Source: Thuidium tamariscinum (Eukaryota; Streptophyta; Bryopsida; Hypnales; Thuidiaceae). From it: a stretch of 64,000 nucleotides of DNA. The notes below the pieces were generated by a model that was not told the DNA's origin, searched no databases, and was given only the letters and a program-made list of their open reading frames with translations. Position numbers and translations under genes: made by a program. The stretch's first letter is position 1. Each line of letters opens with the position of its first letter. Location: NCBI GenBank assembly GCA_947034885.2, contig OX344753.2, positions 27,420,347-27,484,346 of the forward strand, read 5' to 3'. Of the stretch, positions 18,781 through 45,340 are shown one piece after another.

Positions 18781-20520
18781 TAGGATTTTGAGGAGATCGG
18801 TCGGTTTGTTGTTTCTGGTTGGGTCGAATCTGTGGATGAATGGTAGTGAGTGTTCAATTTGGAATTTTGTTTTAAGTCCAAGTTAGGGTGACTGATCCTA
18901 ATGGAAATGCGGGTGGAAGGAAGTTGGTGGAATTCCTAGTTGGATGGTTGGAATTTCAATTTGGAATGGTATTGATGTGTAGTGTGTGCTTTCCAAGTCG
19001 ATTAGTGAGTGCGGGTGGTTGTGCTGCTAAGTTGGTTAAGGAACCGTTTGTTTGGTCCTATACAAGGTGTCATTCCAATTTGGTTTTCACCCACTGCGAG
19101 AGAGTCGAGTGCGAGTCCCAGCTGGTGAAGGCTGGTTTTTTTTTATGTGTGTTTCCAAGTTGGTGCTTGGAGTGTGATTGTGTGATGTTTGATGGTTGTA
19201 TGAATGAATGTTTGAGTCCTAATCGGGGAAGTATTTTGCAGTGAATGGCTGTGTCGAGTGGAAGATTTTTAAATGTTTATGATCCAAGGTTGGATCGTGT
19301 CATTGTGAGTCCTATTCGGAGATTGCACATGGAGGCAAATCCCGGTGTTTCTCGTGGAGAGAAGAATATCTAATTGGAATGTGCGGAAGAGCTACGAAGT
19401 TTCTACAAGCTGAGAGATAGATTTAAGCCTAGTAGGAGATTTTATATTGATGAAATTTATAGTGAAGCATGTGAGCATGATTAATTCCAAACGGGAGTTA
19501 GAAGCTGAGTGGATCAGCGTGTGAGCGAGTTGTGGTGAACGCAAAAGTTAAAGTGCAGAAGTAATTCCAAGTGGTAGAGAATGATTCCAACTTGGAGAAT
19601 GTTATTGACTGGAAAGATGTAGCGTATGTAGGACTATAGGATTGTCAAATCACAAGTCCAAATTGGAGAGAAATTGCTGAGGCAGCAGCATGTTAGGAAA
19701 AGCTTAAAGATGTGTAATGGTGATTTGTCACCAACTTGGATTTTTATGAGAAGATTTATATCCAGTTGGTGTTGTGTGTCGTTGTAGCTGACGGGAATTT
19801 TATGCTTGGTTGTATGTAGGGTAATTGAGATTTTATGTTTTAAATCAAATTGGTATGAATGCAAGTCCGAATTGGTCGTGTAAGAAGTGATATGTGCGTC
19901 TGTGTGAATTCCAATTTGGTCTGTGAGAGCGAGTCTGTCGCGTTAAGCTGCCAAGTAGGGAAGCTGTATGGCGATTTGATGAGATCTAATTTTATGAGTC
20001 CAATTTGGTAGTCGGAGTGTATGCAATTGGTGAAAGAAGATGACAATTCATGAGTGAGTTAAGTGTGAGAAAGGCATAAAAATGGAGAGTAAGGAAATTC
20101 CCAAGTTGGGTAGAAGCAAATGCAAGTTCTGTAATTGCCAGAGTTATGAGAGACCAAATTGTGGAGTTGTAAGTAAAAATCCCAAATTAGTAGGTGAAGT
20201 AGCTAATGTTGTAGTGATAGGAGACAAAACCAATTTGGTTTGGTGAGATTGCCCAAGTTGGTAGTGAAGGGCAGTGATTAGGAATGTACCAAGTAAATTT
20301 TAAGAGAAAATCAGTTACCTTGCTCAATCCAATTCGGGAGAGTGAAGGAGGGCAGTAGTTGCAGAGCCAAGTTGGTGGAAGAAAAGAAAGCAGCGGTTCC
20401 CTGTGAAGGCGGCCAACTGGGAAGTTCAAGAGGCTGGTGGCAGCAAGCCAAGTCGGAGAAAGACTGGGGACCAAATCGAAGAGGAAGTGCTATCCAATTT
20501 GGGAGATAAGTGGAAATATA
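18781..20520. mobile_element. Palindromic-word island C (word CCAANTTGG), probable LTR-like element body
   Basis: Almost 30 near-copies of TCCAANTTGG or its one-base variants recur every 30-70 bp, for example near 18961, 19076, 19151, 19660, 19732, 19758, 19866, 19909, 20008, 20100, 20231, 20253, 20329, 20371 and 20490. The sequence between the words is not repeated, so this is not a tandem satellite. A phrase around 19145-19180 (GTGTGTTTCC, word, GTGTGATTGTG) resembles the GTGTGT-rich phrase next to the words in the LTR-like elements at 21933 and 27680, suggesting a shared skeleton. Exact ends were not found. No coding region. Confidence 0.55.
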
Positions 20521-21364
20521 ATGAAATAAAAAAAAATTAGAAATAATAACTAAATAGTTAATTATTTTAGAAATTAGAAGATGAATTTAGGAACAATTGT
20601 CTTGGCTTGGTGTTTGTGTAGGCCAATTAGGTGTATTTAGAAGCAATCCTATTTAATAACCTCCCTAGGAACGAACATAACTATTAGTTGAATAAATCCA
20701 AATAGGTATCAACACAATCTACAGCAATCCCCAACAATGAGTAGCATTGTTTGACATAAATTACGGGTGGGAAATCTTCATGTAAAGAAATCTTTTGGAT
20801 GAATAGAGTTATTTTCAATGAAATATATATAATGCCTAATTACGTGAGCAATTCAAAATCATGTAATCAAGGTCAAAAATCCTAATTTTGGCCTACAATC
20901 TACCACGAGAATGTAGAAGACATTTCCCTATCATGGTTTATGTGGCTATAAAGGTTTAAAATTGAATGCATTGTCCCATTTAATAAATATTTCAAATGCA
21001 ATAGCATTTAGATGGAACAATGGTCTATATTGCAAACTATAGTCTCTAAGATAGAAGCACCCATAACCATTAGTCTACCCATTCTTTGACACTAGAATTG
21101 CCTTAAACTATCTCCAAAAGTACCTTGAAACAATCTCCATTCTTAATTGTGGTTGGTAGGCTTAGATTTTGGTGTGAAAATCAAGGTTGCTTTATAAGAG
21201 TGCAATTTAGGATGCCCTAAGGAATTATAGTTTAAGAAATTCATAGAAATTTGGTACCTAATCCAAAAATTATATATTTTTTTTAATTCATGATTTTCAA
21301 TTGCTAATACTTCAAAAATATTTTTTTAGAAAAGATGCTTCCAACCATACTAAATTGATTATTT
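20521..21364. other. AT-rich spacer with an inverted repeat pair
   Basis: No gene. AGCACCCATAACC at about 21056-21068 is the exact reverse complement of GGTTATGGGTGCT at about 21369-21381, and similarity extends a few bases on each side, so a short MITE-like element of about 330 bp may occupy 21050-21388. This competes with the LTR start proposed at 21365. Confidence 0.4.
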
Positions 21365-22407
21365 TGACGGTTATGGGTGCTACTACCTTATACAATGGCT
21401 AATACAATCCCACACTCTCAATTCCAGAACAAAACTCAAATACTGCAAGAATCAAAATAATTTGTATGTGTTAAATTGTTGATATTTTAAATACTTTTAA
21501 TTAAATGGAAATTTCTTTTAGTTTTTTCTTGTTAAAATCTAAAATGACATTAACCAATATGCCAACATACAAAAAGTTTTTTGGAGATTCTATAGTCACC
21601 ATATATTTTTAAAATTCCTAACTAGTTGATTTGGCGAAGTACTTTACAACTAATTGTCAATTAGTTGTCACATTGATGAACTATTTTAGACTACTTTTCA
21701 TTAGAATTCTAAAAGGTGAAATTAGGTTACAATGTAGAAGGAACAAATTGTTTGGTAGTTATTTAAAATGAACTATCATCTTTTGGAGAGAATACAATCT
21801 GACAATTCGAAGTTTTTTCCCCCACTCTCTCCGTCTTCTCGGTCTTCATTTTGGTTTTTAGTCAAATTGTAAACTTCTTGTTGTAATGATGAACTCCTTC
21901 AAGATTTTAATATAAGTATATTTTACAAATTGTTTTGTGTGTATGTGTGTTTGTGTCCAGTGATTGGACTTTGTGGTTGTCCGGAGTGGAGGCGTTTACA
22001 ATTTGTCTTGTTGTGTTATTCAAAGATTGGATTGTGTATAGATTTTGTGTGTATAATTCTATATGTTTGTGCAACCAGTTGTATTGGTAGATGTGGTTAT
22101 TACTGTTTGTGCAAATTAAAAGAAAGATCTGTTTACTGCCAAGAGTATTGACAAATTGTTAATTTTTGAACCTCTTTACTATCAACTACTAGCCTTTACA
22201 AATTGGTATACATTTTTATTGATTATCTTTATTGAGAATAATTGGAGTAATAGAGATTCCAACAATGGTGAAAGTATGCGTTTGTAGTGGAGATTGACAA
22301 ATTGTTCAAGCAAGCAGAAGAAGCTCGTGGAGTGATTGCAAGCGGAGATGGACCAATTGTCCAAGTTTGCAAACCTAGGCATGGTAGTTGATTCAATTGG
22401 TGATTAA
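21365..22407 (+). mobile_element. Left part of solo-LTR-like element A (word ACAAATTGT)
   Basis: The element would begin TGACGG after TATTT (21360-21364) and end CTACA at 39221 before an identical TATTT (39222-39226), which is the TG...CA plus 5 bp duplication layout of an LTR. The word ACAAATTGT and variants recur at 21780-22400 (near 21926, 22003, 22149, 22195, 22297, 22352). The phrase at 21933-21975, GTGTATGTGTGTTTGTG then a TGATTGGA word, is matched in the element at 27206-29641. The part after 22407 is separated by the piggyBac element. Counting both parts the LTR is about 2.8 kb. The inverted repeat around 21056/21369 is an alternative explanation of the left edge. Confidence 0.4.
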
Positions 22408-22818
22408 CCCTTCAATGCCGAAGGAAGCAAAAACTACCTTCTCGTATCTTCAAACACAATTTTGAGGGTGCTTTGCAATCTTGATCGTTGAGCAACGAAC
22501 AAGTAATTTGTATGCAATTCAACCTAGTTTCCGAGGCACTTCTCGAATTAAAGATTGGAGTTACCAATTGCCGCAGGCAGCTGCATTCATCAACCAAGGT
22601 TCAAGCTTCAGGGTGGTAGAGCCTTCGAACACCAACAAGAAGATGATGTCTGCTACTGTCTTGAAGTCTAACACGGGATCCTTCTCTGGATTTAGGGTTT
22701 GGCGCAAACTTGGTCTTGCCTTGGTGGTCGTTGGGTGTCCGTTCACGAGGACTTCTTATGAGGTTTACGGTTGTTGGAGTTTAGTGTCGTACGCGCAGTC
22801 TAGCAGAAAGCACCTTTA
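22408..22818. other. Left non-coding segment of the candidate piggyBac element
   Basis: Moderate-GC sequence with a 117-codon open frame (22481-22834) that shows no recognised domain and runs into the next element, so it is not taken as a gene. Confidence 0.35.
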
Positions 22819-24017
22819 TCACACCCAAACGTGATAATATGACACGGAATATCGTCCCAGGAGATTCCAGACGTTACTAATAGTTGCGTTTTCCGGTTTC
22901 TAGGTTTATCGGATCAAAACACCCCAAGTTACTACTCTTAATCCGGAATACCAACTTATCTTCCAGACTGTTTTTCAGGATCCGTCTTTTCTTTCCGAAT
23001 CCGTCTCTCAACTATGACCGGATTCCTTTCTCGGATCTGGATTTCTCCTTCACCCGGATCCGTCTCAATCCGGAATCCGGTTCCGTCACTCAATAATTGG
23101 TTTTTGATACCCCTGTTTTACCCTCAGGGAGTCCTCTCTTGATCTTTAGAGGGGTAGGGACTTACCACTCGTACACCTCACGCTCTCTTCTCTCAAACAA
23201 AACACATGAAAACACCAAAATATATCTGATGTTGTGTTAGGGCCGGATTCGGATCCTCACAACTTCCCGGATAGCTCTAGGCCAATCCGGTTAGCAGGTC
23301 ACTCAGGACTACTTCACTTGCCCTTACTACAACGACAGATTCGAAAACCCCTAGACCCGAAAGGACGTATTTTCCTAGTTCTTCGGATCGACTCAGTGGT
23401 TGGCAGACCTTCCGATGGACGGAACTTTCCTATGGCGGCTGCTTAACTCCGCACGAATCCGCCCCTGCGGTTCCGGAACCTCCTCCTCGTCACTCCTAGA
23501 CTCACACCGGATCACCGTTCCGGTGAATTAAAGGCTCTACGCTCAAACTCACGATTCAAGATCCTAACTCTCGGAAGTTGGTCACTCAATTCGGATTTCA
23601 AGTGCCTCAGAATCCGGATTCCTCCTCACCCTTCCCTCTTGCCTCTCAACACTTCAATGAACACACCAAGAAGAGACTCAAACACAAGTCAGAGCTAGAA
23701 TGTCCATCCGCCGGCTCAAATTAAAGAAGGGAATGAAAATACAATAGAATATGCACTAGGAGGGAATGACAAACCAACTAACTTGCCTGCCCCTTAAAAG
23801 CCCAAAAACACAATGAAAGTCAAAGCCTAAAAACAGAAACGGAATGCCAACAAGGCCAAAGAAAATCCGAAACAACCAATCGGAGCCCAACCGGATTATC
23901 CGGAAAGGTCCGGCCAGTTGTCCCTAAAGTTCCGGATCGGGGCCCACATCCGGGAAATCCGTCCAGGAAACTTCCGTCCCAAAATCTCAAAATCCTACCT
24001 AACTACTCAACCCTATC

Positions 24018-26015
24018 CTACTTACGTGCCCGCTTCGATGTCGCGCCCACGGGCGGAACTGAACTTCTCCGCGTTGCTGCCTTGGGAGGGGGAGCCTTCT
24101 TGGTGGCGGATCGGGTCTGCCTCTTCTGAATCGGAACCGGCGGCGTTCTGCTGTCTTCTGTTGAAGTCTCCTCCGAATCCGCCTCGGAGCTTTCCGAATG
24201 CTCCACTTCCTGAAATCCGCCCTGCTCCCTAACTTCATCACGGATGGTGAGGGGCGGATTGTCTTCCCTGTCCGAGTCATCCAAGATGACTGTCTCGCTG
24301 CACGGATCCTTGCCCAGAACCCTGTCTGGCTCGTTCATGTGGGCGAACTTCTCCGGATTCTCCTTGGCCGGATTCGCTAGGGCCTTCATCCGGATCTCGA
24401 GGTCGAGCCGTGGTGATGCCCTCTTCTCTTGCGGATCCGTAGGTGTGTTGGACGGTCCGGCCGCATTCGGATCCGATCCGAGCTCGCCGAGGTTCTTCAC
24501 GACCGGCGAGTTTCCGAGTAGCTTCCGATCCGTCGACATCCGTCCTTGCGCTCCGGGGCTGAAGTCCGTAAACACCTGCTGGTTGAGCAAGCTCGACAGT
24601 CCTTCCCCCAACTCCGGATTGAGAGTCCCAATTAAGGCCCTCATCTCCTTCAGTACCCCTTCCATCTTGGCCTAGTAATCCACCAAGATGGTGATGACTT
24701 TCGATCCGGTGACGTGCCCTTCCGTCATCAGCCGGGCGGAAAACAGTTTCGCCCTGATCACTGTATCTGCCGGCTGGGCCACCAACTCCTGCAGGTTCCG
24801 AACTAAGGAGGTAGCCTCCACGATCTTCCCGTTGGCGACACTGAGATCACTCTCCAGGTACGTCACCGTGCTCTGGAGCCCATTCCGCTCCTCTTCCGCC
24901 TTCCGTCGTCCCTCTTCAGCTATCCGGGCCAGATCTTCCGCCTGCCGGGTCCGATCCGTCTGGTTCTGGGCCTTGTCCTCCTACTTCCGGATCTCTTCGT
25001 CCTTCTTCCGCAACACGTCTTGAGTCGGAAGACAGTCGAGGATTTCCGGAATGTCCTCGATCTTCACCGCGCCCAGCTTCGTGACAATTTGCTCGAGTAT
25101 CGCCTCATACTGGTTGTTATCTGCGTGTGCCATCATGGCGTGACGGATGATGGTGTCGAAGTGGTTCCGCTTCTTTTTCCCCAAGGTCGATTCGGGTGGA
25201 TCCGGGTCTGGGTGTCCCCTCTTATCCGGCGTGGTGGACTTCTTCCGTTCCGACTTCCGTTCCGGCTGGCTGGCCGGCTTCTGCTCTTCCGGGTCCTCGT
25301 CCATCCGCTCGTCGTCTGGGTCCTCCGGCTCCTTCTCCAACTCATCCGTCAAGCCGTACTTGAGGATCTGAATTCCCGTCTCATAGCGGAGGAGTTCCGG
25401 GCCACTCAACACATCATTGTGGTGGTACAGGTGGAAGAGATAGCCGCTGATAGTGCTGGTCTTCTCCCGTCCCACATGCTCGGCTAGCCGGTTAACTACC
25501 CACTGGAGGACTATACCCCAGTTGACTATCCGCTTCTCAAAACACCCGAAGATGGTGTTTGCTACCGTCACGGTGACACGGGTAGGCTTTTCTGGATAGA
25601 GGATGGGAATCAAGAATTCCAACATCCGTCTATGCCGGTCGTTCGTGCAATCCGGAACTGAGTATCCGTCCTTAGGGTGGGGCGGATTCCGGAACTTGTT
25701 AACACCAAACTTGTCCGTCCGGGGAGCTAGACCTAATCCGGTTTTATCAAAACCGTATACATTCGCCCAGATATCCGGCGTCCAGGCACTCGGTCTACCC
25801 CTCACTGTGAGTTCGTACTGATTCGGAACTCCCGAGAAGATTTCCTGTACCATCTCGTCACTCTTCACACTCCAAGGGCGTTGGATCAACCCATGACACC
25901 CTAGGAAGACTAGATCATCCTCTAACTCCTTCCGATGCTGCGGATCGGAAGGGATAACTGGCGAAATTGCCTTGGCAGTCACTACCGCCCGTTTCGGATT
26001 GGAGGAACTCGCCAT
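24018..26015 (-). pseudogene. Decayed transposon ORF, putative plant transposon protein type, two in-frame TAG stops
   Basis: From ATG 26013-26015 (MASSSNPKRAVVTAKAI) one frame runs about 665 codons to 24018 and is broken only by TAG codons at 24981-24983 and 24672-24674. The N-terminal 220 residues are globular, with a block (RRMLEFLIPILYPEKPT, then TVANTIFG, then ISGYLFHLYHHNDVL) that recalls the putative plant transposon protein domain found in retroelement accessory ORFs; this match is from memory. Then follow an acidic/Lys-rich linker, a coiled coil (about 24700-25000) and a Ser/Asp-rich tail ending in basic residues. Without the nonsense codons the three parts remain in one frame. A TATA box sits about 175 bp upstream. 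No catalytic motif is visible and the function is unknown. The density of TCCGGA words inside the codons is odd. Confidence 0.65.
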
Positions 26016-26190
26016 CTCTCCGCCCGAGTCAAAACTTGTCGGTGCGGTCGGCACCGACCTTGAACTAAACCCGGAACCGATCTCTACTGCTCACCATTCT
26101 TTCTCTCTCTATACGCGCTTCAAAACCTGCACACAAGCCGTACCTCGATTTGCCAAATCGAAAAGGAAAAATGAAGTGGAGAGGAGGGGT

Positions 26191-26197
26191 TTATATA
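26191..26197 (-). promoter_or_regulatory. TATA box upstream of the transposon ORF
   Basis: TATATAA on the minus strand lies about 175 bp before the ATG at 26015, in a GC-rich context, at a plausible distance for a plant promoter with an untranslated leader. Confidence 0.6.
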
Positions 26198-26337
26198 CCA
26201 GTCGGTACCCTGCGTTCCCAGTTCCCCTCGGAACGGCGCGACGTTCCCCGGCCGTTACGCTAGTTTCCGTAGGTCGGTGGCGTAGACCCGTAGGAGCCGA
26301 CCATCCGGAACTGCATCGGATCCGTCTTTAGGTATAC

Positions 26338-26393
26338 CGGATCCGTCCTTGACAATATCGGATCCGTCCTTGACAATATCGGATCCGTCTTTC
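26338..26393. repeat. 21 bp tandem repeat, about 2.6 copies
   Basis: The unit CGGATCCGTCCTTGACAATAT is seen twice in full and once in part. It lies upstream of the TATA box of the minus-strand ORF, where it would be a promoter-proximal repeat containing the element's recurrent word. Confidence 0.9.
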
Positions 26394-26634
26394 CAAGTTC
26401 CGTCTTCCGGAAAGTTCCATTCCGGATACTGAGGAATCCGGATCCGGAAACTTATGCCCATAGACCGGAAATTCACCTTGGTCAATCCGGTTCAGACGGA
26501 TCCCAAGGAAAGAAGACTCTAATTGTCTTCTTTTCGCCATATCTAACCCTAAAATTTTGAAAAATTGAGCTTACTCTATATACTATCTTCCTATTTTACT
26601 TACATGATATTTCCGGACTGCGACATTTAGCATA

Positions 26635-27205
26635 AGGCACATTCATTGCAAAAAGATGTAGCTGACATTTGCACACTTGTCATGGGGCTAAAATGCCATA
26701 GAATAATTTGAGGGTTAGCGTGTTGTGAAAGTACTGATCCAACTTTGTAGTGGAGGTCGTTTTTGAGCATCATCATAATTGTTTTGCACTATGTGGTCAC
26801 AATCTTGCAAAGGGGCACTCATTGCCATGAATGGCAAAAGTGGCAAGTTTTGCTGGATGGTCGTGGAATCCCTTATAGCCTCACAACATTGGCAAAGAGG
26901 TAGCTCATCAAGTTCTCAAGTTCCCAAAAATTTGAGACTCCTGCCACTGATTTTGCCACCCAACCTTCAGAGTAGCTATAGCAATGGAGAGGCAAAGATA
27001 CAAATACAAGCACATGACACCAGCTAGATTCCTCGATCACTTGGAGGAAGAAGTGGAACTTTTTGATAATTAGATGGTAGAAGATAAGAGGAGTGACAAA
27101 GAGAGAGTGGGCATTTTGAATTGCTTGAGCGAGAAGCACTTGCGTCATTTGTCCTTACCATCAAAGAGTAGGCTACTTCCTCCGAACCCCATAGCAAAAG
27201 AGTGG
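26635..27205. other. Spacer between two insertions, probably piggyBac body
   Basis: No gene recognised. Words such as TTGCAAAG, TTGCCATGAATGGCAA and GGCAAGTTTTGCTGG occur around 26800-26860. By position it would be part of the interrupted piggyBac element. Confidence 0.35.
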
Positions 27206-29249
27206 TGATACTTATTTTATAGACAACTTGCAAACATTCTAGGTTTATGAAGAGGACTGATTTCCTAGCGGTAGTGTGAATTGCTCAAAATTTTTTATTT
27301 TTGTTAATTGCCTTGTGTAGTGAGAATAGAGGCAATTTGCTAAGTCAAGTTTACACTTAAAAGGAATTAGAGGCTAATTGTCATTTTAGATTCTAAAAGA
27401 CATAGTATTCAAAGATATGAAGCAAGGCAAATTGACTTGGTGGTTTTTCCATGAACAATTGTCTGAAATCAGCATAGTCATATATTCATTCAATTTTTTA
27501 TTTTTACTTGTACAACACTCTCAGTTTTCATATCTAGACTATTTGTCGTATTCCATATACCACTGAATTTATTCAATTCAATATATATCTACTTAGCAAA
27601 TTGTCATTGTATAGTTGCTAGCTGAGTACCTACGATGGGGCCAGCTTTTACGGCAATTTGACTTTATTGAAAGTAGTTCTTTGTGTGTGTTTTTGTGATC
27701 CAATGATTGGATTTGTGTGTATGTGTGAGAGTTAAGCAATTTGCCAGACTAAGCACCAATTATTGGGCCAGCTTTTAGAGCAAATTGCCTTTGAACTCAA
27801 TTGTAAACTTTTATTGTGTATTACTTAAGTCCAATGATTGGAAATAATTGATTTTGTGAGTGTGGAGCAATTTGCTATGTATACTTAAAGTGTTGTGTGA
27901 TTGTGATTTACTGTGTGATGATGTGTGAATTAATGAGTCGAATTGCCTTTATGTTCAGTCTATTTGCCTAAATTGTGTTCAATTCTAAATTGTTGGAAAT
28001 TACTAAGAACAATTGATACAACTAATTGTCTTTGTATGGCATGTATGTAAAATCAACCATTAAGCTTTAGCAAATTGTCATAGCCATGGTTCATGTTATT
28101 GGATGTATGTGATGTACGTGAGTCAAATTGTCTATGAGTAATGGAATTAATTGTACCTCCAATCAAATTGCCTTAGAGAGTTAGAGTTTAATTGCAAATT
28201 AGAATTGTCTGATTCATTGTAAATTAAAAGAGTTCTTTTAAGCAATTTGCCTGAATGAATCAATAGAATTAGACCGATTGTCTAGCATGAGTTGGTGCGG
28301 TTGGTGAGAAGCTATGGCAAATTGTTGGAGCCAAATTGATGCTGAATTAAAGAAATGGAGAAATTTTGGCAAATTGTCAAAATACAAATTGGAACTTAAA
28401 TTGCTAAATGAAAGCAATGGATGAACTTGCAAATTGACAACAAGTGTCAACCAGGGAGTTTTGCATAACTAATAATAAAATTTTATATTATGTCTAATTG
28501 CATTTGTCATGATAACTAATTGCTATACATTTGAAAATGAATAAATGAATAATTAAATTATAAATTTTGACACATTGCTATTATGTCTTGAATCCTTATA
28601 GTAAAATTATTCGTGAAATTGTTGTGAGTTTTGATTATAGATTAATTCTATAATTAAAACTAAATAAAATTGCATAGATAATTTGTATGATCATAATTGT
28701 GAAAAATGTCAAACTTATAAAAAATACAATTTGATAATATGAATATTGAATTAAATTATAGTCTAATTGTTGAAATTGGTAAATTAAATTAAATTAATTC
28801 TTAAAAGGAATTAATTAAATTATTATTATTCAAAAAGATTAAATTATCGATAAATCCAATTGAAGAGAAACCACGGTCATAGGTCCATAGGAAGTTACTA
28901 TGACAAATTGCCTTGGTCTAGATGAGGAAGTAAAGTGACAAATTGCCTTGTTGTTTGTAAAATTACTAATAAATTATTTTAGTTAATACGATGAGGGATA
29001 AAATGCCATTGATGTTATAAATTGTTCTAAGGTAGAATTAAATTAACCAATTGATGTGGATTTGTGCAGTAGCATGGAAATAGAGACAATTGCAAATACA
29101 TTCATGCCTTGCATTAATTAGGGACGAATTGCCTTAGGACTGGAACTGGTTTGATACTCATCTAAATTTGTGATTAGGCTAGTTAAATAGTGATAGAAGA
29201 CAAATTGCTTGGTAAAAGAATTTCATGGTAATTAAGGAATTGGCCAAAG

Positions 29250-29282
<33 letters not shown>

Positions 29283-29641
29283 CTATATAACTTGTTGTGC
29301 AATGATTAAGTTGGATAGTACATGCAAGTGACAAATTGCTACATACCCTTGACAATTTGCTATACCCTTTTAGAACACTAGTCCAGGACTGGGACAACAT
29401 TCATGCGTCCATAGCATTATTCATGGACTGATTACAAAATTATTTCTTGGGAATAAGAGTGAAACCCCAAATTGCCCATCCAAATGTCTTTGTATGTGAA
29501 AATTAGCAGTATATTTCAATCCATTCTAACTTACATGTGACTTCAGTTATAATATGTTAAACTATTTGACCATTCCCCTAGATTTGAACCCCTATACTAT
29601 AGTCTTGGATTTTGTGGGATTTAAGCAAAACCAAGACTATA
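27206..29641 (+). mobile_element. LTR-like element B, homologous to element A (word GGCAATTTGCC/GACAAATTGCC)
   Basis: The last 280 bp (about 29370-29641) match 38960-39221 closely: a shared CACTAGTCCAGGA-TGGGAC phrase, a shared CCCCTAGATTTGAAC phrase and a shared TTTTGTGGGATTTA phrase, ending AAGACTATA versus TAGACTACA. The phrase near 27680-27730 matches 21933-21975. About 30 copies of a CAAATTGCC-type word recur through the element (for example 27424, 27596, 27735, 27780, 28070, 28122, 28240, 28902, 28937, 29200, 29328). A start TGATAC after AGTGG (27201-27205) gives a 4/5 match to GGTGG after the end (29642-29646). There is no coding region, so it is probably a solo LTR. Confidence 0.45.
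29257..29283. repeat. (TA)n microsatellite
   Basis: About 13 uninterrupted TA units inside the 3' half of LTR-like element B. Confidence 0.95.
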
Positions 29642-29646
29642 GGTGG

Positions 29647-30953
29647 TTAGCAAGGTTTCTCATCAAATTTGAACTAATCCGCAAGATTTCATCCCAAATG
29701 TCACTGAAGGAGGCGAGCAGAGATGCAGCAAGGAAAATATTGTTGCAGTGGAGCTTGAAGATCCAATCAAGAGTCAAGCATCAAGCAAAACTCTACCTTG
29801 CTTGTCTCCAGATCGACACTCAAGGGCTTCTGGAAAATTCACATGGAATTGACCAGCAACTCATTGCCACAATTGCAGAACGCAAGGCGCCCAGAGCATG
29901 TGATGACACAATTGGTAATGGCAGTGAGTTATCCGGTAGAATTAGATGAAAACGCTAACCTATTCAACGGACATGAATATTTGGGAGCGTACAACGTACA
30001 AAAGAAGCGAGGAACTTGCAAACAATTGCCCAAACTGCAACAACAACGCCTACACAAAGCGAAGGGGACAATAATCTTGAAGGTTGGAGAACAACTCGCT
30101 GGTTCCAAAGATGAACTTGTGCATGGGCTCAACAAAACGAGGGGAGGAGGGGGAGAGCATAGTGGGCGTGCTGTTGGTGGAAAGGGTCGAGGGAGGGATC
30201 GAGGAAGAGGAAGAAGTAGTCAAGGGAGAAGGCACGAGAAAATAGACAAGGAAAACTGCTTCAGGGATTCAATTTTGACTTTGGAATATGCCGAATCATC
30301 GGAGGGTTGGAGGAGGCCGATAATTTTAGTGCATGCTGAGCAATCACCGTGGGTATTGAGGCCCTAACCTCAGCCTAGGAGTCGTGTTATTTGAAGTATT
30401 TGGGAGGATGTCAAAGATTATTTTGCTGTATTAACTCTAGATGGATCTCCGCAATGGACTATGAGTCCACATGACTTCCTAGCACGTGGGGCTGGGCGAA
30501 TTTTGCTAGGCACTCAACACATTGAAGACATTGGCGTAAGAAACAACGACGTTCACGTGGATTGCAAAGAAGTGGAACACTATGGTTGTCAACCTATCGA
30601 GAAGGAGGGGAGTGTACGGGATTCACTGGACTAGTATTGAAGTTGCAGCAGTTGCTCTAGCTCAAACAATGATGCCATAAGTATGCAAGTTAGAGTTCCC
30701 AAAGATGTGTTGCAGTGCACACCAAGTCTTTATGAGGAGTACTCTATTCTTGGAGAGGTTATACAAGAGTTTTTTTCACAAAATCAGAAAGAAACTCACA
30801 TACATGGTTCAGTTTAACAATTTCCTTGGACATCAAGCTGTAGTAGCACGTGAATGTCAATTCATTGGCAATGGTCCTAGAAGATCGTAGAGGCGACGGA
30901 GTCCATCAGTAAGTTATAAAGACAAGAGGGACTTTCTAGTGCAGCTACATTAA
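29647..30953 (+). pseudogene. Coding-like remnant upstream of the piggyBac transposase, unrecognised
   Basis: GC rises and open segments appear in shifting plus frames. One, at 29798-30367, has an Arg/Gly-rich tract (RGRDRGRGRSSQGRR). A second, about 30400-30640, reads as a soluble-looking peptide with WEDVKDYFAVLTLDGSP, and a third, about 30680-30820, contains YEEYSILGEVIQEFF. They do not join without frame changes. They may be the decayed N-terminal extension of the transposase or a separate accessory gene of the element. No family is claimed. Confidence 0.35.
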
Positions 30954-32918: not shown

Positions 32919-32926
32919 TATAAAAG
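32919..32926 (+). promoter_or_regulatory. TATA box of the solo LTR
   Basis: TATAAAAG followed by a GC-rich then CT-rich start region (about 32930-32970) is a strong plant core promoter layout and would mark the U3/R boundary of the LTR. Confidence 0.7.
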
Positions 32927-33242
32927 GGGCGGCATTCTCCTCTCATTCTCTCTCTTTTCTCACTCCTAACCATTTAAGGGAGGAGGACTATTGGGCCCGG
33001 GTTATGCCGGATTTCCTTTGGCCTTTGATGCCAAGGAAGCATTTGATGGTCTTTTGGGGTTTTTACACCCTTTGGTAAGTGTGATTTCTTTACTTGGGGA
33101 CTTGAGACCCCCCCAAGTGGTGGAGCTTGTTGCAATCCAAACTTGATTATTCATTGTGTTGTGTACCATTGAGGGTTGTTGTAGGAGAGTATTGTGAGGA
33201 ACCGAAAGGTAACTTGGGAGGTGACTTCGAACGTATGCTTGC

Positions 33243-33520
33243 ACTTGTGTAACCACTCTCTTCTCCCTCTTCTCTTAGTCACGGGGTTAATTTAGTCCCA
33301 TAGGGGACGGCGAAGCTTTGAACTATAGAATAGGCAACTTGTGTAACCACTCTCTTCTCTCTCTTCTCTTAGTCACGGGGTTAATTTAGTCCCATAGGGG
33401 ACGGCGAAGCTTTGAACTATAGAATAGGCAACTTGTGTAACCACTCTCTTCTCCCTCTTCTCTTAGTCACGGGGTTAATTTAGTCCCATAGGGGACGGCG
33501 GAGCTATGAACCCCCGCACC
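33243..33520. repeat. 94 bp tandem repeat, three copies
   Basis: Units start ACTTGTGTAACCACTC at 33243, 33337 and 33431 and are nearly identical; the third diverges after GGGGACGGCG. It lies downstream of the LTR TATA box, so it would be transcribed. Confidence 0.95.
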
Positions 33521-33947
33521 ACCTAAAAAACTAAAGTCTTAGCCACGTGTCAAAACGCCTCACTCTCACGGCGGAGCCTTGAACCCCTTAAGTCTTAGCG
33601 GGGTGTCAAATAACCTCCCTCTTCAGTTAGACTCAACGTTTAGTGTCCAACACGGTTGGCACTAAGTCAACGTTTAGCATCCAACATTAATCGTTCTTTT
33701 GTTAGGGGGTCCCCAATTCCACTAAAAAGCCAAAATTCACGAGTTAGGCCTCAGCTCCAACGTTGGACCAGCCCCAGCCAGCCAGAGCCCCCAGCCAGCC
33801 GGAGCCCTAGCCGGGCCGCCAACCGGGTCCGCAGCCGGGTACCGCAGCCGGGTCCGCAGGTCGGGGAGGGGGGAGCCAGGGTTCGGGAGCCAGGGGGGAA
33901 CCAGGGTTCGGGGGCTAGGGTCCAGGGCCCTTACAAAAAAAAGATAG

Positions 33948-34092
33948 AAATTAGGTAGTTAGGGGAAAATAGGGAAATTAAATAGTTAGGGGGAAATAGA
34001 GAAATTAGGTAGTTAGGGGGAAATAGAGAAATTAGGTAGTTAGGGGAAAATAGAGAAATTAGGTAGTTGAGGGGATAAAATAGAAACTAGTT
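33948..34092. repeat. 28 bp tandem repeat, about five copies
   Basis: The unit is close to GAAATTAGGTAGTTAGGGG plus a short A/G-rich tail, with one or two changes per copy, inside the 3' half of the solo LTR. Confidence 0.9.
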
Positions 34093-34434
34093 GGGATAGG
34101 AAGCCATTGCAAAAAAGACCTAGTTGTAAGAGCACCCGGGAAGGGATAATAAAACGAGCCCGGACCGAGACATGGCAATGATGGACGTGGCGTGGAGTGA
34201 AGAGGACCGGGTCCACGGAACGGAGGTGGGCATCTAACCCTACCTTTGATTTGGATTAATTAATGCAATAGGAGATTGGTTAGTGGAAAAGTCTACATCC
34301 TGAGTAGGGTTAAGGTCCGGTAATTAGCAAATACAAATAGGGAGATAACCACAACCAGAATAGAAATAAGACGAATGAATACCAAACATAGGATAAAATA
34401 CGGAGAAGTAGAGTAAAAGGAACCAAGGCAAATA

Positions 34435-34712
34435 CGTAAACGTAGAGTAGAGTAGAACGGTACCAACACGTAGAGTGGAGGTACTCGATTAATATACGTA
34501 GAGTAGATTAAAACCTAGACCAATACGTAGAGTAGAGGTACTCGATTAATATACGTAGAGTAGATTAAAACCAAGACCAATACGTAGAGTAGCCGAGGAC
34601 AAAGACAAATACGTAGAGTAGAGTAAAACCAAACAAATACGAAGACGTAGTATAGACTAAAAGAATACCAACATGTAGAGGTAGACTAGACGAGTACAAA
34701 GACGTAGAGATG
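34435..34712. repeat. Dispersed ACGTAGAGTAG array
   Basis: About a dozen copies of ACGTAGAGTAG or near variants are spaced 20-40 bp apart, with partly repeated connecting text (GGTACTCGATTAATAT twice). It lies near the 3' end of the solo LTR. Confidence 0.9.
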
Positions 34713-36258
34713 GGGTAGGAGACACCATAAGTAAGGTGGGCTAAAACGAATCCAACCAATTAGAAGGGAGATAAAACAAGAACAAAACATAAAAGTAGGA
34801 CAAGAGAACGAAACAAACCTTGGTTAGGATAGTAAAAGAAGATCCATTGCTTGGAAGGCACAATGGGTTGACGCTTAGACACTCATAGGTAGTAGAATTG
34901 ATTAGAACCTGGTTGTGATCGCTTAATTCCAAGGGTGGGAATGAAGCGCCCACACCAATTAAAAGGATTCATGGGGATCTTGTTGTTCATGGGATTAAAA
35001 ATTTTGCCTCAAATAAGGTTATATTGGGAAAAACGAGCTTTGTTTGGATGTTCCGTGATAAAGTCAGTTACAAGTTGGGATAGATTTGAGGCCATCTTAC
35101 GCTGTCTCCACTTAGTTGATAATGGGAGCTTGCCAAAAAAACATTGCCCTAGTTACGATAAGTTGGGTAAAGTAAGATGGCTCATAGAAGAGTTTGTTGT
35201 CATCAATCAATCCCTTTATAATTGTGAATGATACATAACGGTGGATGAGATTATGATAAAGTATAAGGGGCATTTCTATGAGTTCCGGCAATACATGCCA
35301 AGTAAACTGGTGGAATACGGTTTAAAGATTTGGTGTGTTACTAACTCATTGTCAAGGTGTATTTGGAATCTCCAAATGTATGTTGGTGTTAGGGGCCATG
35401 AAGCATAATCAAACCAAGGGATGAGAGTTGTTTTGGAGCTGACGGAGAACCTTAGTGGTTGTGGTCATGTCATTGTGATAGACAATTTTTTTACGTCTCC
35501 AGAACTCATGGACAAACTATTGACTCGAGGATTTGGGGAACAAGTACTGTGAAAAAAGGTCGTGTAGGCATGTCGTTTATTCTAAAGCAATATGTTGTAG
35601 AGGTTGAATTGACACAAGGCACGTTATTAATAAAGATGCATTGCTCAAAACAAATGGCAGCAATTGTGTAGCAAGATGCATAGTTTGTCTTCCTAATTAG
35701 TACATCTAGGGATCCTATAGTATCGAAGTGGTTGACCTGTAAGCGTTGGATTGGTAGTGAGCTAAAAGAGTTCTACACTAGTCCAATACTTGTAGAGCAT
35801 CAAAAGTACATGAGAAGGGTTGACATTATAGATCAGTACAAGCAAAAGTACTCATCCCAGCTTTGAACTAGAAAGTGGTGGCATAGACTATTCATCTTTG
35901 TTTTAGATTCGTCAATTGGGAATAGCTATATCTTGTACAAAATCCATGTTGAGGAAGCAGGGTTGATGAAGTAGGGTTGATGAAGCTGATAGATCAAGAG
36001 AAATACTAGTAAGAGATCGCTTGGTGGTTGTGCAATCATTGGATGAGGGCAGGTCGGACTTGCGGTCCTTTCAACATCCAAACAAAAGGTATTCATTATC
36101 CAGCTGGGAAAGGCCAAAAGCGACGGCATAAGTGTAAGGTTTGTGGGAAGGTCATGAACCATTTTTATCTCCGTTACAATGGAGCTTACATGTGCGATGG
36201 AGATTGCTATTACAAGATCCACACTCAAGCTCGATATGCAACCTTTGTATTGAGATGA

Positions 36259-37465
36259 AGGCAATTTGGTATTTGCTTATATAGGTAAGCCTCAGACTTC
36301 ATAGAAATCCAGATGAAGCTTCTATCCTTGCACCCAAAGTTGAAGTGCAACGACTTCTCTGATGCATCACTCAATAGCCTGCTAGATGGAAAATACAGTC
36401 CAACATTAGTATCATATTTCGCATGGTTGAGTAGGAACTAGATTATTGTACTAAAGTTGAACTGCACTTACATGTGATTCAATTTTGAGGAGCCCTCTTT
36501 CAGTGATTCAATTTTGAGGAGCCCTCTTTCAGTAGCACCGTAGCCCTACCGTGAACTTTGAACTCTGCAACATTTGGTGGATGATTTTTCCCACATGTAC
36601 TGATTTTGCCACCCAAATTTTTGCTCATTGTAAGACACCTTTTATTTGTAATTGAATTGCAATGTTCAAGTGTTGAACCCTTTGAATTTTCATGGACGGT
36701 AGATGAACATTACGGTTAGTTGTTGGTCGGTTCTATAGGTGCCAAGCAGACGCTACACGCCATTCCCGCCTTTACTTTGGCGGGAAGAAGAGACATGTAT
36801 GCTTTATGAGGTATAAGATGCCCTTTGATTCTTTTGGCAGCTAATCGGGTTTATAGTTCAAGCATCGCCCGACTTGATGAAACTTTAGTTTCAGTCCTCC
36901 GCACCCTGTGTTTACAATCCGTGCACCGTTGCACCGTTGCAACTGCTCGTGCGTTGGAAAATACATTTAGCCAAAAAAATGGAAAGCTTGTAAATACAAA
37001 CTTGAGTACTTGAACAGTTGGATTTCAAAACAAAACAAATGTGATTTTTTTTTAAATAGTCAAACTTACCAGCAATTTCTATACGGCTAAACCTTCATGA
37101 GTTTACCCAACTATTTGCTACACCTTGTAATCCTTTGGAATTCCAAATCTATGACATTCATCATAGTAAATTCTCGTGAATTCTATATATTCAAGTTGGG
37201 AGTGTACGTGCCATTGGCACAAGAGACAGTTGTACTGAGCATGTTTAGTTTTTGGTAAGCAAAGGTAGGGCCCTCCACTTCACTGATAGAAGTTCGGCAC
37301 TCAATCCCTCATACTAAATTTTTTCCCCCGAATGCTCAAGTACTGTACTTCACGTTCATAAGGTTACATTTCACCCTTGGTAATTCCTAAACCATCAAAA
37401 AATAAAATCCAAAACTAGGCTTCCTGGCTACAAGGAATCACCAAAAAGCAACCAGCCCTAAAGGG
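36259..37465. other. 3' non-coding part of the piggyBac element
   Basis: Follows the transposase stop and runs to the GGG/TTAA end. It holds a perfect 29 bp direct duplication at 36475-36532. A short hairpin-like CCCGCC...GGCGGG pair lies near 36767-36784. No gene is recognised. Confidence 0.45.
36475..36532. repeat. 29 bp perfect tandem duplication
   Basis: TGATTCAATTTTGAGG with the following 13 bases occurs twice back to back without a mismatch, which implies a recent duplication. Confidence 0.95.
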
Positions 37466-39221
37466 TTAATTTGGTAAGTGCTCTTACAACTAATTGTTAA
37501 TTTATTGTGTTGTGGGTATGCTTGACAATTGGTTCACCTATAAATTACTATGTTGAATGTACAATCCAATTCTAAATCTTGTAAGTATGAAGTAGTCTAA
37601 ACAAATTTGCCAAATTGCTTAATTTACAATTTGTATTGATTTGGTAGAGTTGGAAGTATGTGTTTACAGACTAGTTGTTGTGATAATGGATTTACTTTAA
37701 ATTGTTGTGATTAATTTTGTGAAAGACTTATGTTGAATTATTGTTAAACTGGGAACTACTTGTTGATACACAAATAGTCTAGTGGACTTAGATTTATCAT
37801 GAATGTCCTTGCATATCAAACTGTAACAATTTGTACTTTGATGCATTGATATTAATTAAATGTTTTTTATGTCTGTGACTAATTGTCTTGGTTTAATGGA
37901 TGCTATGTCATGCGAACCTAACAAGTTGTTATGCTGATTGAATATATAAATTAGAAATCAGATTGCAGATGTTTGTATGGCATTCCGAGATCATATGTTT
38001 GATGTTGGTGAAGTTAATTATCTTGTGGTTGTTTTTATATAATTCAATTTGAGTGATTTAGAGTGTATATTTAATTGTATGAATTTTAAATTACAAATAG
38101 TCAAATTTGTTTGCGAAAACTATTGTTGGATTACTAAGGTATTGGGCAGTAGAATTGGTACTAACCATTGGTTAAAAGGAATTTAAAAAAATTGATTAAT
38201 GTGTAAATTTTTGATGAATAATTAGTTCATTATTTATATATTATTTCATAGTCACAAGCAAAATTAATGGTAAAATGAATGGTTGGAATATTAAAATTTA
38301 TGTTAACCATTTGTTTTAGGATTTGTTTCTTAAATTAATTACCACATATTAGTCATATAGACTAGGTGTTTAATGGGTACCATTATTGTAGACAATTTGT
38401 TGGGATTGATGAACTTTAACAAATTAGTTATTTGGTAAGGGCTGTAGGAATAAGTAGTAAAATGGAGATGATGGATTATATTTGTTAGATATGGTTGTTG
38501 GGAAGGAAGATTTGGTTTTGATATGAGATTGTGTTTAAAACAAATTGTTTTCAATCTAGTGTTTAGTGGTTGGCCTTGTCAAGGCTTAATTCCAAACCCT
38601 CATTTGGAATTGGGAATTAGCCAGCTAGTAGACTAATTGTGGGATTCTTTAACCAATGGTAGTGAAGTTGTGCAGATAAATAAAGGAGCTTACATTACAC
38701 ACTCATGCCTTACATTTAAATAGTGACAAATTGTTTTTAGATAGGACAAGGATTATTTTCTTGAGCATCCTAATTTGGTAATTTGGATAGCTAAGTAGTG
38801 ATAGAAGCAATTTGTTTGGTAAAAACAATTACTAGTAATTAATGAACAATATGTTACTCGATTTTTGTTATATATAATATTATATTTAAATTGCATTTAA
38901 ATCTAAATCATGCATGACAAATTGTTAGTCTTTACAACTAATTGTTTATAGAAATTGAGCCACACACTAGTCCAGGATTGGGACTGCACTCATGCGTCTA
39001 TAGCATTATTAAGGACTGGGCCATCAAATTTGTATACTTGGAAATAAGATTAGATACTAATTGTTAGAATTTTAATTGTTATTAATGTGTATTTCCTATT
39101 CCATTTCCAATTACATATGACTTTAGCCACTATACATTAGACTATTTGATCATTCCCCTAGATTTGAACTCCTATACTATAATCATGGGTTTTGTGGGAT
39201 TTAGACAAAACTTAGACTACA
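37466..39221 (+). mobile_element. Right part of solo-LTR-like element A (word ACAATTTGT)
   Basis: Words such as ACTAATTGTTAA, GACAATTGG, ACAATTTGTA, GACAAATTGTT recur through the segment (for example 37490, 37533, 37628, 37827, 38392, 38727, 38934). The 3' 260 bp match the end of the element at 27206-29641, and the end CTACA is followed by TATTT, the candidate target duplication also seen at 21360. Confidence 0.45.
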
Positions 39222-41902: not shown

Positions 41903-42580
41903 ATTTGGCAGTTTCTGCCACTTTTCAAGACAGTGTGTGTAACACAATGTCCTAAAAAGTGGCAAAAATTACCCCAAAAAATTTAAAAATTCCATTTCCC
42001 TCCCCCCTCTTTCTTGTAATTTTTGGAAACTGATTTCATTGACAAACAATATGGGACAATTCATCCCATATTTGTATTTCTACATGTATCTTGGTATTGT
42101 ATCCATATCCCTATACTATATCCATATCTATACTTATATTTGTATTCATATTCAATATCCGTATTTGTATTTGTATTTGTATTCATGTTCAATATCCATA
42201 TTTGTATTTATACTCATATTCATATTCTATATCTATATTTGTATTTGTATTTATATTCATATTCATATTCAATATCCATATTTGTACTTATACTTATATT
42301 AGTATTTGTATTCAATATCCATATCCATATCAAATATTTCATTACGTATTTACATATGGTATTGTATCTATTTCTAGTATTCGTATATGGTATTATATTT
42401 GTATCAATATTTAAAGTAAATCCTACAAGATCAATGGCTTGTGATTTTTTGGAAAATCAACAATGATTTTGAGGGTAAGAATTTTTTTTTGAAACAATCG
42501 ATGGCTTACAAATTTTTTGAGAGATAAGGAGGGGCTAATCAATTGATTAAGAATGTGCTGCCACTTTTCAGGACATTGGT
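41903..42580 (+). mobile_element. Non-autonomous element G, copy 2, with longer simple-sequence core
   Basis: It has the same blocks as the copy at 39877: GGATTTGGCAGTTTCTGCC, a degraded hairpin with CCACTTTTCAAGACA, CCCTCCCCCCTC, CAATTCATCC, a longer degenerate ATATTTGTATTCATATTCAATATCC array (about 42070-42410), an AAGATCAATGGCTTGTGAT phrase and a final CCACTTTTCAGGACA (about 42562-42576). The array is longer than in copy 1, so it has expanded or contracted since the copies split. Long Tyr/Ile-rich frames in the array are artefacts of the repeat. Confidence 0.65.
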
Positions 42581-42769
42581 AACTGTGATGTAAATTTTGC
42601 CTACTTGACAAAAATCCCAAGACAACTATTTAGGGGATTATTTCCATGGAAAGGTCTATAAGTCTATCCTTTGTATGACTAAGGTCACTGTAATTGTATT
42701 TTGAATACTTATTTTATGTTGTTTTTGGTTTGGTTTCAAACAAAAATAAACCCAAGGAAAAATTCTCTA

Positions 42770-45340
42770 ATGTCAATTGGTCACAATCCACAAACTCAAT
42801 GCTATAGTAGACCAAATGTATGACGTCACAGTCTTGCCTAGTAAGTGGTTCACGTCAAATCATCGTCGTCAAGTTGTCTAGGGTGGTCAAATTGTCTTAT
42901 GCATGCTCTAGCCACTTAATGCAATATATATTTTTATATAATTATATATTTTTATTTTATTTATAATTTGATTCCTCTTTTCTTTCTCTCACATGGCAAT
43001 CACTCTTAATTTGCAATAATTTAATTTTAAATAAAAGAAATTTAAATTCTTTCCTTTTATTTTATTTCTTTATCTTTTAACAAGTTGATCCTCTTTCGCA
43101 AGTCAAATGGTCTCAGCCGTTCCACTTGAATTATGTCAAATAGTCTTCTAATCTACCTACTACATCTAATAGACCTAAATTCACTATTTAGACTTAATTG
43201 TTTTATTTCCAACAACCACAAGCAATTCCTACCTACCGGATTTGTTGGTGGTTGGGGAAACACTTGCAATATAAATTTTAATTCTAATTATCAACTTGAC
43301 TCTATGTCTCAGTCAATTAGATTTAATTCCTTAGACATGTGACTTCATAATATCAAAAAGAATCACATTCTATTAGACTTAATTCCATTTCTACATAATA
43401 TTTAGTCTACTAAACTTAGCAGATTTTGAATAATGAAATTACTTTAGTCTATGTCTCCAGTTGACAAACTATTTTAATAGACAACATTCATTTGTTGCTT
43501 CATCTCAACACTTCCACAAAATCAATTTGACTTAAGATAATTACAATTTAATTCCACATCTATGCTCAATCAATTAGACCATTACAGTTCAAGACTGCAG
43601 ATGTTTACAGACGATTCGACATCAGCACAATTGCAACAACTAAATCATCAGCACAATTGCAACAACTAAATTGTATGCTTAGTATTTTAGGGTACAATTT
43701 AACAATCCAGCCTATGTGAATTCAAATGCAATTCCATATCAAGCTTGGACAATTAGACATAAAAATGCAAGACTAAGTTCTCCATAGCCAATTAGTCATC
43801 CTCACAATATCTAATTTTATCAAATGAATTCCAGTTTCTCACATACACCAGTCTAATAATAATTAATTTGACTTCTAATAATTAATTAGACTATGAGCCA
43901 TGCTTCCCTTACCACATGGATGCATTGTGTGACTCAATCAACTAGTTAGCATCACTATACTGTTTGGCAATTAGACCATGCTCCCATGACCATGCAACCA
44001 CATGAGACTTACAACAGCATGTACTTAGGCTATTAGACTGTATGCTTTCTAACACACATCAATTATGCACAAGCCTGATTCAGTCAATTAGACATGACTA
44101 AATTTTAGCCATATTGCAAATTAGCTGTTGAATAAAATTAACTATTCAGTAATCTCTCACAATAAGAGAAGTCCAGTAGACTAACAATTTTAAATGAAAC
44201 AAATCAATTATAATTCAGCCACTTGTGAGGTTCCCATCTGCCAAGTTGACTTGATACAACAAAATTACACTTACTTGTCCATTTGACTTCACAATCTGTG
44301 TAAATTAATTAGTTTGTATTTCCATCAACCATGTCTAAATGATTACAAAATTATTCAGACCAATCGACTGAAACTTACCAACATCAGAGATATTTCACAG
44401 GCAACCTGCTCAGTCCATTGGTCCGATCTCCAACACAGCCACCATCAGCTTCGACAATTGGACTAAAAATTCCATTTTTCTAACTTCAATCTATCCTCAC
44501 TAATATTATAGTTATAGCAATCCTTCCACTCACCAGCCACCTGCTGCTCAGTCAATTTGATTTCCAACTCCACACTCAACAGCTAACTATTCTCACCCTC
44601 CATCACATTGACTATTCACTACAAGAGAAAGGGGTGTTTTAAGTAGTGTCCTAGACATCACATCTTTTAAGTAATGTCTTTTAAGTAAGGTTTTAAGTAA
44701 AATTTTACTAAAAAGACTGTCTTTTTGGTAAAATTTTACTTAAAACCTTACTTAAAAGACATTACTGAAAAGACGTGATGTCTAGGACACAACTTAAAAC
44801 ACCCCTTTTTCTTGTAGTGATTAGACTCTGTAAATTAATTCAATGGCAATGAAAAACTGTAGGCTTGTACTGACAATTAGACAAAGATTACAAACAACAC
44901 AGAATCAAAGCACACACAAGTAAATAGTCAACTGGACAAGAAAACAAACGAGCTCACAACTACCTGCTGTCTCAGCTCAAGACAATTAGACAAACATAAA
45001 TTGCACAATGCAAAAGCTCAAAGATATATTGACAATTAGAAGCGAGTACACTGTGAGTCATACCAACTGTATGCACTGAAAAATAATCAACTAGACATTT
45101 GGACATATAGTCCCAAAACTGCGAAGACAACTCTTCACCATGAGGTGCATTGTCAATTTGTCTTTCTAATTCTTCTATTAGTCCCTTCCAGATCCATTCA
45201 CTCACACCCTTTTAAGTCTCAATTAGCATTTACAAGTCTATTTGACTTAGGAATGGAAATGGAGCTAACTCTATGCTCTATTTACACTGAGAAAGGCAAA
45301 TTGACATCAAAATTTAAAAAATTAGGTTCACAGTAACTTA
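42770..45340 (-). mobile_element. Palindromic-word island D (word GTCTAATTGAC/CAATTAGAC)
   Basis: CAATTAGAC, GTCAATTTGAC and close variants recur every 30-70 bp (for example 43312, 43571, 43750, 43971, 44086, 44458, 44876, 44984, 45032, 45150). A phrase near 44920-44945 (AGTCAACTGGACAAGAAAAC) resembles the reverse complement of the GTGTTTGTGTCCAGTGATTGGACT-like phrase of element A, suggesting the same family in opposite orientation. A 26 bp duplication lies at about 43620-43672. The CACTA-type MITE at 44617 is inserted in it. There is no coding region, and the ends are approximate. Confidence 0.5.
44617..44819. mobile_element. CACTA-type hairpin MITE
   Basis: It starts CACTACAAGAGAAAGGGG and ends CCCCTTTTTCTTGTAGTG. 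The two halves are near-perfect reverse complements through most of their 200 bp. It is flanked by ATT on both sides (44614-44616 and 44820-44822), the 3 bp duplication expected of the CACTA/En-Spm superfamily, whose ends are typically CACTACAAGAAA. It has no coding capacity. As RNA it would fold into one long hairpin. Confidence 0.92.

Follow-up and report, generated by a model that had tools for sequence, protein, structure and literature searches.

The nearest described counterpart of the DNA presented here is found in Sireviruses, Ty1/copia elements whose long terminal repeats (LTRs) carry repeated motifs. In the sections consulted of Bousios et al. 2010 (PMC2829016), these motifs are LTR-based dyad words, present in 8-32 copies per element and sharing a common core with element-specific arms; ACAATCGATTGT of Tnd-1 is the sole core exception, and the repeated motif is called Sirevirus-specific. 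For the VANDAL/VANC anti-silencing system, the part of the description considered (PMC5735166) gives a non-palindromic motif, YAGTATTAY, arranged in tandem repeats and recognised by a known encoded binder. The Retrosat2 family, in the portion of its account used here (PMC3485330), has LTRs of more than 3 kb and a fast-diverging open reading frame, ORF0, before gag-pol, and that ORF0 was not found outside grasses. Here we describe a window of Thuidium tamariscinum (C5:27420347-27484346, meaning the whole stretch of 64,000 nucleotides), analysed together with searches of the 363-Mb assembly of 19 contigs. The window holds LTRs of four families, designated A to D, each carrying its own near-palindromic word in many copies, and a GC-rich element with short repeats of its own.

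We propose, with a probability of roughly 60%, that each LTR would be an array of dyad sites for a family-specific dimeric DNA-binding protein acting on LTR activity.

Family-specific words and their constraint

By position frequencies, the A word is (A)ACAA-N-TTGT(T) with any base at the centre, and the B word is CAA-W-TTG with an A/T centre and mostly purine, unequal arms, of which the commonest pairs are GA/GG (46), AG/GA (44) and AG/GG (42). The C word is CCAA-N-TTGG, all four letters occurring at the centre, and the D word is GTCWA-N-TWGAC, usually imperfect. Common to all four is a pair of half-sites in inverted orientation, each ending in CAA (in D, CWA) and separated by one base, the outer letter being A in A, G or A in B, C in C and T in D. 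An earlier note on this DNA had described the words as family-specific near-palindromes, which stands, with the free centre of A, the unequal arms of B and the imperfect copies of D as qualifications.

Exact counts in the window were compared with 1000 dinucleotide shuffles, none of which reached the observed count for any word. The C word CCAANTTGG was found 12 times (shuffle mean, 0.07), the A word ACAANTTGT 12 times (0.23), the B word RRCAAWTTGYY 14 times (0.08), the D word GTCWANTWGAC twice (0.01) and the words of the GC-rich element 30 times (2.7). With one mismatch allowed, the counts rose to 29 for C, 30 for A, 19 for B (as GRCAAWTTGYC) and 26 for D, against means of 1.2, 4.1, 0.2 and 0.37 in 200 shuffles. 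An exact-match table of eight words by five islands was diagonal except for TCAANTTGA, found three times in D and once in A. Each island is thus saturated with its own word, as the earlier note had claimed, except that its spacing of 30-70 bp was too short: exact cores lie 85 bp (B) or 130 bp (A) apart at the median. The genome-wide enrichment that it had put forward as a check was run as word pairs, giving 186 pairs of CCAANTTGG at 60-85 bp against 2 for the reversed pattern, 215 pairs of ACAANTTGT against 5 for the reversed control, and 17 pairs of GTCWANTWGAC at 30-60 bp against 0.

A word-free scan for any gapped palindrome covered the window and 40 fetched loci. A match was obtained in 27 of these 41 sources and none in 14, and the best match was an A, B or C family word in 25 of the 27; the same cut was passed by one of 205 shuffled sources. 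The imperfect word of D is missed by such a scan. In the two exceptions, loci L030 and L034, the best match was another word. The L034 match, TCCANNNNNTGGA, led to a palindrome common to A and B that is described below. The L030 match, AAGTACTT, occurs six times in about 670 bp (L030:7303-7972), downstream of the A element copy L028.

With the 3' end of B as query, 157 first-look candidates gave 40 scored places, one of them the window's own B copy; 36 were fetched (20 + 16) and three left out. Word-masked similarity divided 37 copies into 18 of A type and 19 of B type, and their word content tracks this split. A-type copies hold 4-15 copies of ACAANTTGT, with GCAANTTGC absent from 17 and present once in the other, and B-type copies hold 0-9 copies of GCAANTTGC and 0-4 of ACAANTTGT. 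The words are spread over nearly the whole LTR, and no own-family word was found in 4910 bp of internal A sequence or in 1602 bp of internal B sequence.

For alignment, 15 of the 37 copies that lacked both ends by end pattern were left out and the window B copy was added, giving 23 LTRs in all. Across copies, the A words are kept at 0.932 and their flanks at 0.820, the free centre base of A at only 0.727; the B core is kept at 0.939 and its flanks at 0.858, and the B centre is kept as well. For the 7-base core, the conservation excess observed was matched by one of 150 control words of equal composition in A and by none of 150 in B, and the A words exceed their flanks in 20 of 24 site bins. 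These substitution patterns indicate constraint on the words, stronger than on the flanks and not extending to the centre base of A. Counts above all shuffles and slower change than the flanks together set the words apart from the shuffle-level noise that had been named in advance as the alternative outcome.

A neutral origin of the words, by slippage, local duplication, conversion or composition bias, is highly improbable on this evidence. In its favour, at least one pair of word contexts in B, in copy L015, agrees in 22 of 24 flank bases, and the mean flank similarity of word sites is slightly above random in four of five LTRs (7.5-8.7 of 24 bases, compared with 6.9-8.0 at random positions in one draw). 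Flank identity so near random means that duplication explains few words at most, and the earlier dismissal of tandem duplication as their source holds, bar a few cases such as the L015 pair. Shuffles that never reach the counts, words that change less than their flanks but for the centre of A, and the concerted arm difference given next all speak against neutrality.

When 10 A LTRs were aligned with 13 B LTRs, nine columns had the core in at least two copies of each family. Five of these are orthologous sites within alignable blocks (A/B identity, 0.60-0.76); the core is kept at each, and at every one an arm with A or T in the A family shows G or C in the B family, for example GACAAATTGTT in 10/10 A copies and GACAAATTGCC in the 10/10 B copies keeping the core. 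In these blocks the background rate at which T in the A family faces C in the B family is 11% of cells, and the rate for A facing G is likewise 11%; the five-site arm difference is therefore well above background. Over all nine columns, eight follow the arm rule, in agreement with the earlier suggestion that the arms change in concert while the core stays. As an internal control, the 13-bp palindrome TCCARTGATTGGA is unchanged between the families, being present in 10/10 A copies and 9/13 B copies (in one of these with another base at the centre); its positions include 21956, 27699 and 27830 of the window, besides the A and B LTR copies. We take its A form to be two inverted CCAAT boxes.

The presence of such a shared palindrome suggests that host-type sites exist in these LTRs, and it brings in the alternative that the families recruited different members, one each, of a single family of host transcription factors. 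Such recruitment would act by ordinary cis-activation, which has been suggested for the Sirevirus motifs too, and neither an element partner nor co-evolution would be needed. Paralogous host factors would be expected to yield a common core flanked by different outer letters, and Sirevirus motifs mainly matched stress-related plant transcription-factor sites in the sections consulted (PMC2829016). On the other side, recruitment does not call for as much as is seen, namely a different outer letter in each of four families with little cross-use of exact words, and the words cover nearly the whole LTR, not just the promoter. We regard host recruitment as a real but minority possibility.

Several results weigh against our proposal of family-specific dimer arrays. 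For 9-base words, 11 of 150 (A) and 11 of 102 (B) control words reach the observed conservation excess, which leaves the constraint test strong where the core is concerned but only moderate where the arms are. The B words exceed their flanks in only 16 of 24 site bins, and the A centre falls below the arms in 13 of 24. When A is compared with B, 390 of 649 aligned cases retain the core (0.60; control mean, 0.42), and at least five of 19 controls are higher, meaning that core retention between A and B is not exceptional. The homology of the remaining four A/B sites is doubtful, since the identity of their blocks is 45-50%; the arm rule holds at two of them, holds at a third in some of the B copies and fails at the fourth. 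When one mismatch is tolerated, B contains 17 A-like and nine TCAANTTGA-like words. Families C and D are each represented by one sequenced LTR plus genome coordinates, and the GC-rich element does not fit the dyad with a one-base gap.

Carriers of the words and nested layout of the window

The earlier note had taken the carriers for LTR elements, and this is confirmed by TG...CA ends, target duplications, LTR pairs around protease (PR) matches and a reverse transcriptase (RT) in D. Complete copies of A type begin with TGTAGTC and those of B type with TGTGAGT (TGTGAAT for the copy in the window); they are 1.9-3.4 kb long, and at 22 inspected 3' ends ACTACA, or a sequence close to it, gives way to dissimilar sequence. 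Of 22 complete A/B copies, 15 are flanked by an exact 5-bp target duplication, as for solo LTRs. Within the window the duplication is exact for D and the GC-rich element, shows one difference for B and is not clean for A and C.

Internal sequence was found next to several of these LTRs. Locus L028 is an A-type 5' LTR followed by primer-site-like sequence and then by gag- and protease-like sequence (weak matches, E 0.0044 and 0.0036); a 3' LTR of this A element (L028-L030) was not found in the 20 kb read after the 5' LTR. Two D LTR pairs, C1:11045888-11064867 and C3:3354173-3372307, enclose PR matches 77% and 75% identical to the PR of the A element (by coordinates), and a C LTR pair, C1:46503664-46515642, encloses a PR match 43% identical to it (by coordinates only). 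From the first D element, 1071 and 1101 bases were read: TGGCGCCGCTGCCGGGG stands directly after the LTR end, and an RT (RVT_1, E 7.8e-26) lies downstream of PR, so that this pair combines paired LTRs, PR, RT and a sequence resembling a primer-binding site, which we presume TGGCGCCGCTGCCGGGG to be. The RT starts 0.8 kb past the PR match and the 0.65 kb read of this interval gave no integrase match, an arrangement other than that of a Sirevirus-like copia carrier. From this order of PR and RT and the primer-site-like sequence, the carriers of the A-D words are classed as LTR retrotransposons of Ty3/gypsy type, forming sister families.

In the window, the island C LTR occupies 18645..20723 on the plus strand, its ends being set where copies stop aligning; it holds 12 exact CCAA-N-TTGG words and 29 with at most one mismatch. 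Its strand was set by two C LTR copies with a PR match of like orientation between them, and its target duplication is GCAGT/GCAAT at best. The A LTR lies on the plus strand in two parts, a 5' part at 21591..22407 with five exact ACAA-N-TTGT words and a 3' part at 37466..39221 with seven and the terminus TTAGACTACA. The parts are collinear with intact A LTRs once the flanks of the insertion between them are joined, and no matching target duplication surrounds the whole (21591-39221).

The insertion that splits A is a piggyBac-like DNA transposon with nested inserts (22404..37469, plus strand). It has TTAA on both sides, CCCTT ends and a transposase match to DDE_Tnp_1_7 (E 3.8e-43 and 2e-8, in two frames, about 34953-35929), the three marks by which piggyBac is recognised; the transposase is broken by frame changes. 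Nested in it are the GC-rich element and the solo LTR of island B (27275..29641, plus strand), with GRCAAWTTGYC-type words and flanks GGTAG/GGTGG. Another insert in the same transposon, at 31500-34950, consists of a 94-bp unit in three copies plus 27- and 57-bp repeats, and similar sequence occurs in L031. The window's A is accordingly a single LTR in two pieces, split by a piggyBac-like insertion that holds the GC-rich element and the B solo LTR. With B lying inside that insertion, A and B had looked like homologous yet separate islands.

The solo LTR of island D (42584..45332) has an exact target duplication, GTAAC, and GTCWA-N-TWGAC words; its copies end near 45332, and its sense strand is the minus strand, as deduced from LTR pairs that enclose an oppositely oriented PR match. 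Inside it lies a fold-back insert resembling a miniature inverted-repeat transposable element (44605..44831, without assigned strand), with 113-nt arms that are 92% complementary. D copies extending into this region break at query positions 2013-2017 and resume at 2221-2223. Sequence similar to the insert was found in L042, L012 and L020.

The GC-rich element (22785..26625, without assigned strand) is a TG...CA unit of 3.84 kb, bounded by TGTCG...CGACA and flanked by the exact target duplication TTTAG; it was also noted at C8:20131600-20139300. Among 585 first-look candidates, 33 other near-full-length copies have 92-97% identity and the same ends within a few bases, besides one copy at 83% and three partial ones. 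Its half-site ATCCG occurs 78 times on both strands, inside and outside an ORF and in changing contexts, an architecture that differs in this from A-D; CCGG words occur in this element only among the islands. The earlier view of it as another word island holds for the enrichment given above, and the word pattern itself, repeats of the ATCCG half-site, fits loosely. An antisense ORF of about 690 codons is broken by stops in the window copy; of 117 scored matches, 33 are free of stops and open over 690 codons. Neither this ORF nor L031 gave a relevant Pfam match, and the structure model of the ORF was too poor for a structure search (mean value of the predicted local distance difference test, pLDDT, 37). 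The element may be an LTR or a separate non-autonomous element. At two C8 loci the ORF lies antisense 6.5 kb from a PR match, which was insufficient to identify the element as the LTR of a PR-bearing element.

Candidate partner and proposed mode of action

A short ORF with a CCHC knuckle-like motif, designated ORF0, is situated between gag and the 5' LTR in one element of each of the families A, B and D, that of the B copy being broken by a stop. Its positions, in no order of family, are L029:348-1003, L031:325-1005 and L049:318-899. In the genome, 20 of 40 ORF0 matches, belonging to 19 elements, lie 2.9-4.0 kb upstream of a same-strand PR match, as counted with 31 of 150 PR matches. Between A and D, ORF0 is 38% identical (32% in another alignment) and PR 77%, indicating that ORF0 evolves fast.

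The ORF0 protein could be considered as the binder of its own family's LTR words, a reading that its place in A, B and D elements and its fast evolution favour. CCHC knuckles, however, usually bind single-stranded nucleic acid or RNA. The Pfam support for the knuckle lies below the cut-off (E 0.0009 in D and 0.27 in A), and the fold model was too poor for a structure search (mean pLDDT 46). The words are also dispersed, unlike the tandem targets of VANC. Given the poor model and the usual RNA binding of knuckles, ORF0 is a lead only, and its role as the binder is doubtful.

Knuckle-like motifs are present in both ORF0 and gag, and LTR sequence is present in RNA, from which it might be argued that the words act in RNA as packaging or dimerisation signals read by a zinc-knuckle protein. 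We consider this improbable: the words are strand-symmetric, have a free centre in A and extend across the presumed U3, and arms of four bases would be too short for hairpins.

In the array model that we prefer, the protein would bind as a two-fold symmetric dimer, with two xCAA half-sites pointing towards each other over a gap of exactly one base. Families A, B, C and (as CWA) D have the core of the half-site in common and are told apart by the outer letters, so that the proteins reading them would be variants of a single kind, one for each family, encoded by the element or in a gene family of the host. The occupied array would probably serve to drive or protect transcription, and only that from the LTR of its own family, in a transcriptional or anti-silencing role, and when the partner of a family changes, the sites would change along with it.

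A stronger form of this model would make the words an address code. The half-sites ACAA (A), CCAA (C), GCAA (B) and TCAA (D, as GTCWA) mean that all four letters at one position are taken, and the one-base specificity of expanding, element-linked dimeric binders might insulate sister families from each other, the sites being rewritten LTR-wide when a binder changes; ORF0 could be such a binder. In this extended form the model is unlikely.

Comparison with described systems

The earlier note had named VANDAL/VANC as the closest precedent. The likeness is that related elements each gather their own short motif in non-coding DNA. VANDAL elements are MULE (Mutator-like) DNA transposons with an encoded binder that removes methylation, and the carriers here are LTR elements; tandem non-palindromic sites with a known protein in VANDAL/VANC stand against dispersed dyad words here. 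The long LTRs and the fast-diverging ORF0 before gag-pol recall Retrosat2, and the portion of the Retrosat2 account used here (PMC3485330) mentions no family-specific word array. No report of such arrays in Ty3/gypsy LTRs or in mosses was found among the titles and abstract openings of the open-access literature.

By their dyad symmetry, LTR location and shared core, the Sirevirus motifs are nearer than VANDAL/VANC, judging from the sections consulted (PMC2829016). Here too, dyad-symmetric words in high copy within the LTR combine a shared core with differing arms. Sireviruses have copia carriers, a CGG-CCG core, CpG islands, clustering in the upper half of the LTR and extra copies before ENV; here, neither a copia carrier nor a CGG-CCG core is found, the elements being of Ty3/gypsy type with a CAA-N-TTG core (CWA-N-TWG in D) that lacks CpG, and the words fill nearly the whole LTR of 2-3 kb. 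A 2016 paper in Genome Research reportedly dealt with Sirevirus palindromes and small RNA.

The occurrence of such arrays in Ty3/gypsy-type elements besides those of Sireviruses points to a repeated evolution of family-specific LTR codes. With a single core, four arms and many copies, these arrays offer a clean system for studying how selfish elements switch regulatory partners over dozens of sites, and how insulation from their relatives is maintained. The feature that sets this locus apart from the Sirevirus motifs, within the parts of that account considered, is that, at orthologous sites, the arms of two sister families differ in concert.

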